Source of the DNA: Selaginella tamariscina
Taxonomy: Eukaryota; Streptophyta; Lycopodiopsida; Selaginellales; Selaginellaceae
Assembly (NCBI GenBank): GCA_003024785.1
Contig: PUQB01000041.1
Location: forward strand, 98,348-162,347
Length of the DNA stretch: 64,000 nucleotides
Reading direction: 5' to 3'
Below are positions 38,755 through 49,295 of the stretch, piece by piece. Within the stretch, counting starts at the first letter, position 1; each line of letters opens with the position of its first letter. The notes beneath the pieces were generated by a model. That model was given only the letters and a program-made list of their open reading frames with translations. It was not told where the DNA came from and did not search any database. A program made the translations under genes and the position numbers.

Positions 38755-40798
38755 TTAAATACATTTTCCGGAGGATCCCAAAACTCTCATTTTCTCGGCT
38801 GCCACGTGTTCCATTGCCGATTGGGCAAGCTTCATCAGGTCGAGAATATCCTTACCCCGTGACTCCAGAGATTCCATGTATGCAGTACGGAGCTCCGTGT
38901 TCACGTTGAGCTTCCGTACACCACATTCAATGCATGACTGGAATAAAGATGATTGGATTAGAACGTGTGACGTGGACATCATCTACAAGACGTGGATATG
39001 TAGTAAATATGATTAATTAAAATTAAACTAACGTATATTTAAGCTGCACACGTGATAAGTATGAGTGTAGGTGTGAATATATTATATTGTTATAAATATG
39101 ATATATATATAATTTATTATTATATTATATAATATTTAATTTAATCTTAGTCCAGTCAAGAGAAGATGAAGTATAACTAAACAACTGAAAACATATATTT
39201 TACTACTATGAATAAAATCTGACAACGTAATGTATATAAAATATTAATGCAATCTAGATATAATACTATTGTTAGTAACATACGTTATTGACTTGTATTC
39301 TCATTAAAGAAATTTCTAGATTGTACTATGTTACTTAACATTATTAACACTTGAATACCGTTTCCTAACCTTAAATTGAATCTAAACGACCCATCCATAA
39401 CACACACACACACACACACACACACAGGTGTGTGTGAACTTTATTACCTTGACCATATCAATAGGCAAGCCCGATGCACCATGCAAAACCAAGAGAACAC
39501 CATGTTGAAGAGTAATATTTCTCAATTCCTGTGCATAATCACACGCATTTACATACATATAACACACATACACAAATGTATACATACACGCACACGCACA
39601 CGCACACATATAGAATCTTACGTACCTTGAGGAGTTCAAAGTTCAAATTGGGACCACTTGCAGGATACTTGCCGTGAACATTGCCAATACAACTGCTAAC
39701 ATGTCCACCTGAGTCTTCTCTATGAACTCCTTCGCCTAAACACGTAACATTTAACATTTAATACTGGTAAACTGCATACATTAATCACAATGTATACTTA
39801 CTAATATAATCTATATTATATTTTTCTTTAAGCTATATAATATATATATACATATATGTATGTATTACACGTTTAAGGTTTAAACTCACCTGGTTTACAT
39901 CCGTAAACTTTGACTCGTACTCTTCAACAGTTAAACCATCTTCCGTACCAGATAGCCGACCCAGTTCAGCTTCAATGGAGAGGTCTTTAGAGTGTACGGA
40001 AGAAGCCATTCTTTTTGTAAAACGCACATTTTCTTCAAATGTCAAGTTTGACCCATCGGCCATCACAGAATCAAAACCCTGCAAAATTACATAAATGTTA
40101 TAAATAATAGTTAATTATAAATAAGAAAATAAGCATTAACAGTTAAAACATCTAAACTTTACTTTTAACTTTATAAATGACCTAAATGATCTTTTAATAC
40201 TGCAATATGATTATTACTTTACTATAAATATAAGCTCTGCTTGTTTAAATTTTAATTAAACATTTACCAGCTCCAAACCCTCGAAAAGTTCGGATTCATC
40301 GCTCCCATGATCAAAATGTACAGTTATTGTACCTACATTGTTTAAAATAAAAATATAGTACATAATTAAGTTAATAAAAGCAATATATTGCAAAGAAGAT
40401 TCAATGGTGAATAAACACCACACACACACACACACACACACACAACTATCTGTGTATAACATACATATTAACGACTTACAGTAGCACTTTTAGCAGCAGC
40501 TATGCAAGATGCCACTAATGCTCGTCCCCATGATGATAAGCAGCCGGATGAATCTATGGAGTATACTTTATGTTGTATATATATAATAATGTTATATTAT
40601 ATAAGTTATATTATTATATACATCATATCTTATACATAAATACTAGTACATGATATAAAGTATATATGATACATATATACGGCAAACCTGTAATATTGCT
40701 GGACTTCTCTCTGCTTCTGCAGCAGATATAACGGCTTTGGCCCCTTCTAAATTGTATACATTGAATGCCCCGACTGCATATCCTCCATGCTCAGCATC
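38755..40798 (-). other. Class II aldolase part of the fusion gene
   Basis: Exons 40798-40688, 40553-40480, 40332-40268, 40078-39890, 39735-39626, 39528-39448 and 38937-38755. GGYAVGAFNVYN opens the barrel. HFDHG and GNVHGKYP supply metal-binding histidines, and LHGASGLP and NVNTELRTAY the phosphate site. Frame breaks occur near 40527 (G4 run) and 39687. The last intron (38938-39447) is the longest in this part. Confidence 0.82.
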
Positions 40799-46700: not shown

Positions 46701-49295
46701 CCTATCAGGAGGTGTGAGTGTGTGAGGGTGATAGATTGATATTTAATTAGAGTGCATGCGAATCTATAATGTTGTAGACAAATGTTTTATTATGGGCATG
46801 AATTGTCTACAACATGTGATTATAATATGATATACAGCATTCACTACACGCAAACACGCACGCACACACACACACACACACACACACACACACACCTTTA
46901 GCTGCTTCAGAACTATTTCCGCTGCTTATGCCCCCGACCTCTTTGAATTTGGCTCGTGCAGAGTGTATAACCTATAAATGTGCAATATTACAATAAATCA
47001 ATAACGATAAAATAAGTTTAATTATTATGCATAATTTAGCAATATAGCACTTTACTCGATATTACAGTTACTTACATCGAAACCAGACACGTGGAAATTC
47101 TTGGAAACCAAACAAGAAGCCATGCCAAAGCCCATTGCACCAAGGCCAATAAATGCAATCTTTTCAGAATTTTGAGATCCGGAAGATTCCAAGGTAGCAC
47201 TAGAATATTCTTTTGCGGGAGAAGCAACTACGATTCCAGCAGCTTTTTCCCATATCTGTAATATCTCTCTCTCAAACACACACACAAGCAATTGTACACA
47301 TACCTTGACAACTGCAGAATCGTCTTCACGACCATAGCCACATGAAGAACCTGAAGAAATTACACCTCAGCAACATACTTAGCACAGTGTGTGTGTGTGT
47401 GTGTGTGTGTGTGTGAGAGAGAGAGAGAGAGAGAGAGAGAGAGATTACCCAATAAAAACTGTTGATGAGCTACTGCTGCAAGTGGTAAAGGAGAGACGTG
47501 ATCTTTTCCTTCACTTAGAACAATTCCCTGTAAATAATAAAATATTAAATATAAATTTTTTACTTGTTATTCCACCTACAAGGTCTTTTATAAATATGCT
47601 AAGAGCAGAATGAGGGAAGTAATCACCATCCAGCATATGTGGTACACGGTTCATAAACATCCTGGTTAAAACAAGCACATGTTATTTAACACACACGTAC
47701 ACGTGTGTGTACATTGAAGTGTATATGCACATAAAGAAATCATAACAAATCCACACACTACGCGTACCATGAACTGCCGGCTGAATGAGATATTATCTCA
47801 TATAGAAGACGAGTATCTATTCCTGCTCGTGCTCCCAGAGCCATGGCTTCTGCTGCAGCAGCTATATGAACTCCTGCCAGTAATTGATTTACCATCTTCA
47901 CTGTGCTGCATACACATTAATATATTAAATACACGTGTGCAAATGTACATCTAGATACAACTGTGTGTGTTCAAATAATAAGCTAAACAAACAATGAAAC
48001 TGACCTTCCTGCACCAGCACCACCTTCTATGATATACAGCTTCTCACTCATAGCTATTGAAAACAAGAGATGGATTAATCTCTCTCTCTCTCTCTCTCTC
48101 TAGTAAATATATGCTTACCAGAAAGAGCACGCATAACCTTATCTAATGCATTTTGTGAGCCAGCAGCCATTATCTGTAATGGAAATGTTATTTCTGGTTG
48201 AAACCATTTCACTCATGTGAAACTTAATAAGAGATTAATTAAATTATTTAGTTTCGGCTTACTGTTAATGTTCCATTCGCTGCTCTTGCTACTCCACCAG
48301 AAACAGGTGCATCAACCAGCAGAAGATTACGTTCTAAGCAAAGCGACCACCATTTAGAAAACACACACACACAGAAATCTTACAGACAGACACACCCGTA
48401 CACACAAATAGTATATATTACTAGTTACCTTTTAATTTTTTATCAAGCTTCCGTACATATCCGGGTGCTACTGTAGAACAGATTATAACAATAGCCCCAT
48501 CCGGCAGCACTAAGAAATAAAAAATCAATCTCAAAGTTAATAACACGTGTGTGTGTGTGTGTGTGTGTGTGTGTGTTTTGGATATTCTTTCATCATACAA
48601 ACCTGCGGCAGCTCCATTTGGTCCATATATAACAGAATCAGCCTGTTCCGAATTCGTAACCATTACAATCAAAATAGATGCACCTGCTCAAAATTAAGAT
48701 GCCATATATATATATGATATACATGATATATACGTGTGTATATATGTAATATGATATGTGTGTGTCCAATATATAAACATTATAACATATACCATATACA
48801 TTATAAACTATACATTGCACACATATACATACTATAACCAACCTTGAGCTGCATCTGCTGGGTTTAAACTAGCAGCACCACCTAAATCACTGAATCGCTT
48901 CATTGCAGGCTCTGAAACCTGTATGTACGTATATAAGTATGATACACCTACATGTGTGTATGCGTGTTTTTATGTATATATACATCCAAATGATAAATTT
49001 TATAGATACTATTAAGATTATTGATAGATCCGCATGTATATATAGAATCTGCACTGGATCAACGATAAGATTAATCAATTATTATGCAAGATAATAAGAA
49101 AACATGAAAATTTACATAGTTTAAGAAAAATACATAATTGTGTACAAAATGTACATTTTTACGTACGCACGCACACACACGCTTGCTTACATCATAGCCG
49201 CGTACATGAAATCCGCATCTGAGGAGCGTGGTGGCCATGCCGAACCCCATAGCTCCTAAGCCGATGAACGCTACCTTGTCCGCCATATCCAGCAT
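38755..49295 (-). CDS. Fusion of two beta-hydroxyacid dehydrogenase units, DUF1537 kinase and class II aldolase
   Basis: 44 exons from 49295 to 38755, about 1,370 residues, matching the plant ketose-bisphosphate aldolase class-II fusion family. Order: dehydrogenase unit 1 (exons 1-11, 49295-47304), unit 2 (exons 12-22, 47255-44394), DUF1537 sugar-acid kinase (exons 23 to ~37) and class II aldolase (exons ~38-44). Both dehydrogenase units keep GLGAMGFGMA, VDAPVSGG and the catalytic Lys in STVKM(V/I)NQ. Kinase marks are VLDDDSTGTQTVHG, VLRGDSTLR and GSYVPKTTKQ. Aldolase marks are HFDHG, GNVHGKYP, LHGASGLP and NVNTELRTAY. The set suggests oxidation, phosphorylation and cleavage of a four-carbon sugar acid. 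At least a dozen single-base frame breaks are inferred from exon 19 on. The start may be 49286 instead. Confidence 0.85.
41181..41292. repeat. (CT)44(CA)12 compound microsatellite at a splice donor
   Basis: 112 bp of pure dinucleotide repeat. On the minus (sense) strand the intron after exon 41438-41294 begins directly with this (GT)n(GA)n run, so the donor GT is its first unit. Confidence 0.9.
42065..44204 (-). other. DUF1537 (four-carbon sugar-acid kinase) part of the fusion gene
   Basis: Exons 44204-44038, 43920-43838, 43766-43680, 43462-43344, 43212-43095, 43025-42954, 42811-42692, 42591-42523, 42474-42366, 42230-42160, 42112-42065, continuing through 41944-41815, 41631-41534, 41438-41294 and 40978-40893. 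N-half: VLDDDSTGTQTV and VLRGDSTLR. C-half: GGLVVVGSYVPKTTKQ, SRELITGK and PGVPYIVFPGNVGG. Breaks are seen near 43845, 43703, 43354, 43125-43150, 42975, 41900 and 41845. Confidence 0.78.
44394..47255 (-). other. Dehydrogenase unit 2 of the fusion gene
   Basis: Exons 47255-47076 (linker plus Rossmann), 46971-46896, 46215-46135, 46026-45946, 45827-45757, 45641-45587, 45492-45444, 45069-44933, 44859-44777, 44638-44560 and 44442-44394. Exon sizes match unit 1 almost base for base. Exon 19 is one base short and exon 20 one base long, and both disturb the frame. Another base seems missing in exon 21 near 44593. Confidence 0.8.
45089..45415. repeat. ~120-bp minisatellite, 2.7 units, in an intron
   Basis: Units start with CAATTACACATAT at 45090, 45217 and 45333 (127, 116 and about 80 bp). 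Each carries TGTATAAACTC.TATAAAA.CATTATT.CTCTAGC and ATAGTGAAAGCATCCAC. The third unit lacks an internal block. It lies between exons 45492-45444 and 45069-44933. Confidence 0.85.
47304..49295 (-). other. Dehydrogenase unit 1 of the fusion gene
   Basis: Exons 49295-49191, 48918-48843, 48683-48603, 48509-48429, 48333-48263, 48173-48119, 48053-48005, 47905-47768, 47661-47580, 47527-47449 and 47350-47304. The reading frame is unbroken. NAD-binding GLGAMGFGMA is near the start, the substrate loop is DAPVSGG and the catalytic Lys is in GSTVKMVNQLLAG. In the angiosperm homologues I remember, the first unit is less conserved than here. Confidence 0.82.
47387..47444. repeat. (GT)n(GA)n compound microsatellite
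   Basis: 14 GT units followed by 15 GA units in the intron between fusion-gene exons 47527-47449 and 47350-47304. Same unit order as the other compound runs. Confidence 0.9.

Follow-up and report, generated by a model that had tools for sequence, protein, structure and literature searches.

The question raised by this locus is whether a gene of Selaginella tamariscina encodes, in one polypeptide, the enzymes that dispose of L-threonate, and whether its broken reading frame belongs to the plant or to the draft assembly. The locus lies in a stretch of 64,000 nucleotides (GenBank assembly GCA_003024785.1, contig PUQB01000041.1, positions 98,348 to 162,347 of the forward strand), which we call the window. 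An earlier note, made from the letters of the window, had suggested that two dehydrogenases, a kinase and a class II aldolase form such a route within a single protein. We identified here an LTD-type gene, so called after the L-threonate metabolizing domains protein (LTD) of Arabidopsis. With a probability of roughly 75%, it is the land-plant gene for a fusion enzyme that removes the L-threonate released when ascorbate is broken down, and its frame changes are errors. The evidence for this reading comes from the architecture and order of the domains, the family score of the first dehydrogenase unit, the placement of both dehydrogenase units in the clade of bacterial threonate dehydrogenases (LtnD), the phenotype of Arabidopsis knockouts, the grouping of the aldolase unit with Chloroflexota aldolases and the count of PF01116 matches in the assembly. 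The parts of the gene, in window positions, are as follows (FBP, fructose-bisphosphate).

38755..49286, minus strand: LTD-type gene, 44 exons (exon model built by hand; Pfam)
47304..49286, minus strand: exons 1-11, dehydrogenase unit 1 (LtnD1), open frame (Pfam; NCBIfam ThreonDh)
44394..47162, minus strand: dehydrogenase unit 2 (LtnD2), within exons 12-22 (Pfam; best family ThreonDh)
40893..43920, minus strand: DUF1537 kinase unit (SBD_N, NBD_C), exons 24-37 (Pfam)
38755..40798, minus strand: class II FBP-type aldolase unit, exons 38-44 (Pfam F_bP_aldolase)
39626..45069, minus strand: exons 19-42, holding all frame changes (homology; stop codons)

The gene starts with an ATG at 49286 and ends with a TAA at 38757-38755; its exons total 4138 bases, the median intron has 115 bases, and the final residues of unit 1 extend into exon 12. 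All 43 introns have GT..AG ends, which were picked by hand when the exon ends were set and are thus not independent evidence for the gene model. Pfam was run on four pieces of the predicted protein with an X placed at each frame change, which depresses the family scores of the affected units. All domain matches were far over their cut-offs (E-values of 3e-22 or lower) and are beyond chance: NAD_binding_2 and NAD_binding_11 in unit 1 (144.1 and 119.2 bits) and in unit 2 (136.8 and 79.5 bits), SBD_N (153.1 bits, gathering threshold 25) and NBD_C (108.3 bits, gathering threshold 28.3) in the kinase unit, and F_bP_aldolase (PF01116; 261.3 bits against a cut-off of 25.5) in the aldolase unit. The order on the minus strand, two HIBADH-type dehydrogenases followed by the SBD_N/NBD_C kinase and F_bP_aldolase, is that of LTD. 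The observed domains and their order are thereby confirmed. The units form one collinear series of exons, although the frame changes about 16 times in exons 19-42; the printed letters are thus not a single open frame, and the units would share one polypeptide if these changes are errors, as the overlap evidence below suggests. The assignment of a class II aldolase stands as well, with the correction that it is of the FBP type (PF01116) and differs from the Aldolase_II/adducin-type enzyme used in tetronate pathways of the E. coli kind.

That this fusion is a known plant family agrees with the literature. The architecture is that of Arabidopsis AT1G18270, named LTD by Yamamoto et al. (2025; PMC12540250), who report it in the land plants examined and describe it as absent from five green algae. 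Like the window gene, Arabidopsis LTD has two LtnD units, the SBD_N/NBD_C kinase and F_bP_aldolase in that order, with no separate isomerase unit in its description; the kinship of the two genes is judged from this architecture and the published account, and the window gene, in contrast to its Arabidopsis counterpart, is known from sequence and has its frame interrupted in the assembly. Two Arabidopsis ltd knockout lines lost L-threonate dehydrogenase activity in crude extracts and accumulated L-threonate in the dark, when the LTD gene is induced (PMC12540250). The earlier note had named both L-threonate and erythronate as substrates of the bacterial enzymes; the former agrees with these phenotypes, whereas D-erythronate dehydrogenase activity in Arabidopsis was independent of LTD (PMC12540250). 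It had also offered the pathway role as an inference, a sound idea that has since been published and partly tested (PMC12540250). Hence the window gene adds to a family already described, whose role is known and in part proven, and through the fusion the breakdown of vitamin C is tied to the central carbon metabolism of land plants. In the literature searched by the name AT1G18270 and related listings, PMC12540250 was the only source on the function of the protein; other papers place the gene in a leucine-catabolism co-expression module (a 2008 study, PMC2483283) and use it as a nuclear marker in cactus work (PMC9081079), and according to a 2024 review (PMC11066805) what becomes of threonate is largely unknown.

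In the proposed mechanism, the LtnD part would carry out the NAD+-dependent oxidation of L-threonate to 2-oxo-threonate, the step that corresponds to the LTD-dependent activity of Arabidopsis crude extracts (PMC12540250). The DUF1537 kinase unit would phosphorylate the product at C4, and the metal-dependent FBP-type aldolase unit would then release CO2 by a retro-aldol-like decarboxylation and yield dihydroxyacetone phosphate (DHAP). Channelling of the intermediates, as proposed in the earlier note, may accompany these steps. The second dehydrogenase unit arose from the first by tandem duplication and has diverged.

Unit 1 passes the cut-off of the NCBIfam L-threonate dehydrogenase family (NF043037, ThreonDh; 372.4 bits, cut-off 350) but stays well short of the one for 2-hydroxy-3-oxopropionate reductase (NF008592, GarR type; 200.4 bits, cut-off 397), which is a new result; all 13 NCBIfam families listed besides ThreonDh were under their own cut-offs. 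All three ThreonDh controls exceeded 350 (E. coli YgbJ 471.0, Azoarcus LtnD 455.9 and Paroceanicella LtnD 439.7), and in the control genomes the family gave matches in 14 of 14 and exceeded its cut-off in 1 of 14, with E. coli qualifying. Unit 2 was likewise under the reductase cut-off (155.2 and 165.7 bits). In a first LtnD tree of 41 rows the two units were sisters (99/93), with unit 2 flagged as a long branch, and the pair shared a clade (100/97) with five LtnD of Proteobacteria. A second tree, with a better reading of unit 2 and without the second Azoarcus HIBADH and L065, again placed them as sisters (99/93), on branches of 0.40 (unit 1) and 1.19 (unit 2); the short row L085 was left out of both trees. 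Among the readable positions common to five bacterial LtnD, 81 of 94 are kept in unit 1 and 63 of 89 in unit 2. Both units keep the DAPVSGG and K-x-x-NQ motifs, which we take to hold the catalytic residues. Since the units are sisters with unequal branches and unequal numbers of kept positions, the sequences indicate that the pair goes back to one threonate dehydrogenase, copied in tandem, and that the second copy has since drifted about three times further than the first.

The kinase and aldolase units retain their family motifs, and the aldolase keeps the metal-site and DHAP-site motifs of solved relatives, residues to which we presume the same roles apply. In the aldolase tree the plant unit groups (98/96) with the aldolases of three Chloroflexota contigs, whose genes come immediately after that of the kinase. 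Its identity to these is 48.9-52.7%, against 36-41% for five further class II aldolases, among them KbaY, GatY and Fba. The unit was under every cut-off among the 20 NCBIfam equivalog and subfamily families listed (fructose- or tagatose-bisphosphate aldolase proper); the nearest was cbbA, 208.6 bits against a cut-off of 215.6, a score lowered by the X at frame changes. Searches with the kinase unit matched 7 of 72,556 plasmid records (identity 36-39%) and gave 559 confirmed matches in a bacterial genome collection, of which the best 80 are 38-50% identical, the top two being from Chloroflexota. We make no claim on a bacterial donor: the plant row stays unplaced (50/88) in the kinase tree, for which 38 of 87 rows were selected, and the aldolase tree is small (22 rows) and weakly resolved, 10 of its 19 inner branches being open.

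We then compared the fusion with bacterial routes. The three activities named in the earlier note do have bacterial counterparts, the aldolase being comparable to 2-OtnC and not to the OtnC of the four-step route (PMC12540250). The three-step route LtnD/2-OtnK/2-OtnC, as described in that paper, employs the same three families with an FBP-type aldolase and no OtnI. A similar set occurs in the Arthrobacter plasmid locus L005, where the kinase, a single LtnD-type dehydrogenase, a permease (gluconate-type by eye) and an FBP-type aldolase follow one another as separate genes, an order unlike that of the plant fusion; the L005 dehydrogenase has threonate as its best family, with 242.9 bits (under the cut-off of 350). 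In the four-step route LtnD/OtnI/OtnK/OtnC, as in E. coli ygbJKLM (L087) and Azoarcus (L088), the dehydrogenase is a close relative of the plant one. Unit 1 is 44.6% identical to the E. coli LtnD and 51.6% to that of Azoarcus, but the decarboxylase of the four-step route belongs to a different fold family (PMC12540250), its loci carry an isomerase gene whereas the plant fusion has no separate isomerase unit, and the E. coli kinase gave no match to the plant kinase at E 1e-8.

The surroundings of the kinase relatives were analyzed in 86 loci (the best 80 of the 559 genome matches plus 6 of the 7 plasmid records); some contigs end close to the kinase (less than 1 kb downstream in four, upstream in two). 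On the strand of the kinase and no more than 2.7 kb from it, 34 of the 86 have a HIBADH-type gene, 14 an FBP-type aldolase gene and 8 both, and 7 have the order dehydrogenase, kinase, aldolase. These seven, all from Bacillota (L050, L053, L055, L060, L073, L079, L080), share the three families and the order of the plant fusion, and differ from it in that the genes are unfused and that all seven dehydrogenases belong to the 2-hydroxy-3-oxopropionate reductase family (406.7-474.5 bits, over 397) and not to threonate dehydrogenase (177.2-215.6 bits, under 350). Judging from these scores, the Bacillota operons probably serve another sugar acid. Its cleavage would yield DHAP and tartronate semialdehyde, and the end products of the route would be DHAP and glycerate. 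By analogy, the plant fusion could handle a longer keto-acid, phosphorylated by the kinase and then split by a true aldol cleavage into DHAP and a compound such as tartronate semialdehyde, which the dehydrogenase units would reduce in the manner of GarR. This seems very improbable to us: unit 1 has the opposite pattern of scores, both plant units lie in the LtnD clade apart from the operon dehydrogenases, and ltd mutants accumulate L-threonate (PMC12540250). A GarR-like reading of the plant units is accordingly disfavoured by both the family scores and the tree. Since the seven plant-like operons carry a reductase-family dehydrogenase, gene order alone misleads on the substrate, which is not to be read from it; family scores tell the cases apart.

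Other loci put the kinase in varied settings. In Larkinella (L045, 6900-7880) a D-erythronate dehydrogenase gene (462.2 bits, cut-off 325) adjoins the kinase on the opposite strand, and the dehydrogenase beside the kinase of L071 has threonate as its best family (310.7 bits, under the cut-off of 350). The kinase neighbours in Chloroflexota are not LtnD genes: L010 has genes for a transketolase, a 2-hydroxyacid dehydrogenase and HpcH/HpaI, and L013 has a sugar lactonase and a short-chain dehydrogenase. For this reason, other acids may be the substrates of the closest bacterial kinases and aldolases. It could thus be that only the dehydrogenase step of the plant enzyme acts on threonate, and that the kinase and aldolase serve another sugar acid or are inactive. 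The settings of L045, L010, L013 and the reductase-bearing loci favour such a division, as does the fact that published tests of Arabidopsis LTD reached the dehydrogenase step alone (PMC12540250). We regard it as unlikely, given that both units keep their family motifs and that the L005 gene set resembles the Arthrobacter enzymes which, in Guo et al. (2024, as cited by PMC12540250), convert 2-oxo-threonate to DHAP. In 6 of the 86 loci (L001, L006, L018, L027, L037, L081) the gene next to the kinase is of the Asp/Glu racemase family, five times over the Pfam cut-off and once under it; its product was considered as a candidate epimerase or isomerase for oxo-tetronates. As for bacterial fused forms, no open frame in 87 loci matched two of the enzyme classes.

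The second part of the question concerns the reading frame. Exons 1-18 are open, and the frame shifts about 16 times across exons 19-42 (by eye, from homology) while the conserved protein carries on through the changes. Avoiding every stop codon takes at least 9 frame switches, against 41-66 (mean 54) in 200 shuffles of the bases, so the exons are coding. Every break lies left of 45132. We searched the assembly (300.7 Mb, 1391 contigs) with the DNA of the gene and obtained 143 matches, the window's own place not among them. One of 6378 bases at 100% identity lay at the end of contig C898, whose last base corresponds to window 45132; the remaining 142 were short and mostly to microsatellites. 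Introns of the gene carry long (GA)n and (GT)n microsatellites (41150-41300, 42260-42330 and others). Alignment extended the C898 match as follows.

28560..45132, plus strand: stretch common to the window and the end of contig C898 (DNA search; alignment)

Identity is complete from 36907 to 45132. From 33500 to 36906 the two contigs differ by 22 insertions or deletions (indels), of which a script placed 6 in homopolymers, 5 in tandem units and the other 11 in neither, and by 0 substitutions; most of 28.56-32 kb, a Ty3/gypsy-like element (by eye), has about 5-7% substitutions. Uncorrected long reads typically give indels without substitutions. Exons 1-18, outside the overlap, comprise 1448 of the 4138 exon bases and have 0 breaks, a result with a chance of about 0.001 if 16 breaks were evenly spread. 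The window copy might instead be a pseudogene in the source plant, as about 16 frame changes, at least 9 of them called for by stop codons alone, and the recurrence of the same letters in C898 would suggest. We consider such decay improbable: the contigs differ by indels without substitutions beside the broken part, the exons outside the overlap have no frame change, splice sites and conserved residues are kept, and the search of the assembly turned up no further PF01116 gene, so that no intact spare copy is known. In addition, a gene for a short-chain dehydrogenase at 24100-24760 (minus strand) seems to jump frame inside one exon (by eye), with Pfam matching just one of its three frames, a weak hint of uncorrected indels. 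On the overlap evidence, the frame changes are most likely uncorrected sequencing errors, with some doubt left, and the plant most likely has a working LTD-type gene. More generally, overlapping contig ends can make an apparent pseudogene in a draft assembly recognisable as read error.

Several observations weigh against an intact fusion enzyme acting on L-threonate. Over the broken part of the gene the two contigs agree letter for letter; C898 was therefore probably assembled from the same reads and gives no second, independent reading. Unit 2, whose best family is ThreonDh, reaches 289.2 bits, or 313.5 when better read, under the cut-off of 350; its frame changes lower this score. No NCBIfam family matched the kinase unit at E <= 0.001, and most of its bacterial relatives are near neither an LtnD-type gene nor an FBP-type aldolase. 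In Arabidopsis, full-length LTD protein could not be produced, isolated LtnD1 with a trigger-factor tag was inactive, and under oxidative stress the activity dropped while LTD transcripts rose (PMC12540250). The inactivity of LtnD1 alone would fit a covalent pseudo-dimer of which unit 2 may be the obligate partner. Alternatively, unit 2 may supply the rearrangement of 2-oxo to 3-oxo tetronate, since the fusion has no other obvious candidate for that step. That unit 2 is, in one of these ways, not a spare copy is a tentative idea, against which we would put the odds.

Within reach of the assembly searches, the LTD-type gene is single-copy. PF01116 gave 6 exon matches, three in the gene and the same three in the C898 overlap. 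The L-threonate dehydrogenase family gave 8: five in the gene, one in the overlap and two weak ones on contig C498, probably an ordinary HIBADH-type gene. The search of the assembly with PF07005 gave 0 matches, a miss of the method on short and broken exons.

The match between contigs C738 and C898 runs rightwards from the Ty3/gypsy-like element (by eye) that lies within window 28560-33500. Left of the element, nothing in the examined 30 kb of C898 (L105, L106) matched the window, and one of the two contigs may therefore be misjoined at the repeat. Neighbouring genes of the window include AP2, LTP and DUF617 domains (Pfam), and in our judgement the introns, microsatellites and neighbours are plant-like. 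Right of the contig junction, the DUF617 gene and two LTP genes have open frames. Two similar lipid-transfer-type proteins in opposite orientation adjoin the start of the LTD-type gene (49927-50289, plus strand; 51258-51635, minus strand), and a telomere-like tandem of three CCCTAAA units lies just beyond its stop codon (38672-38700, minus strand).

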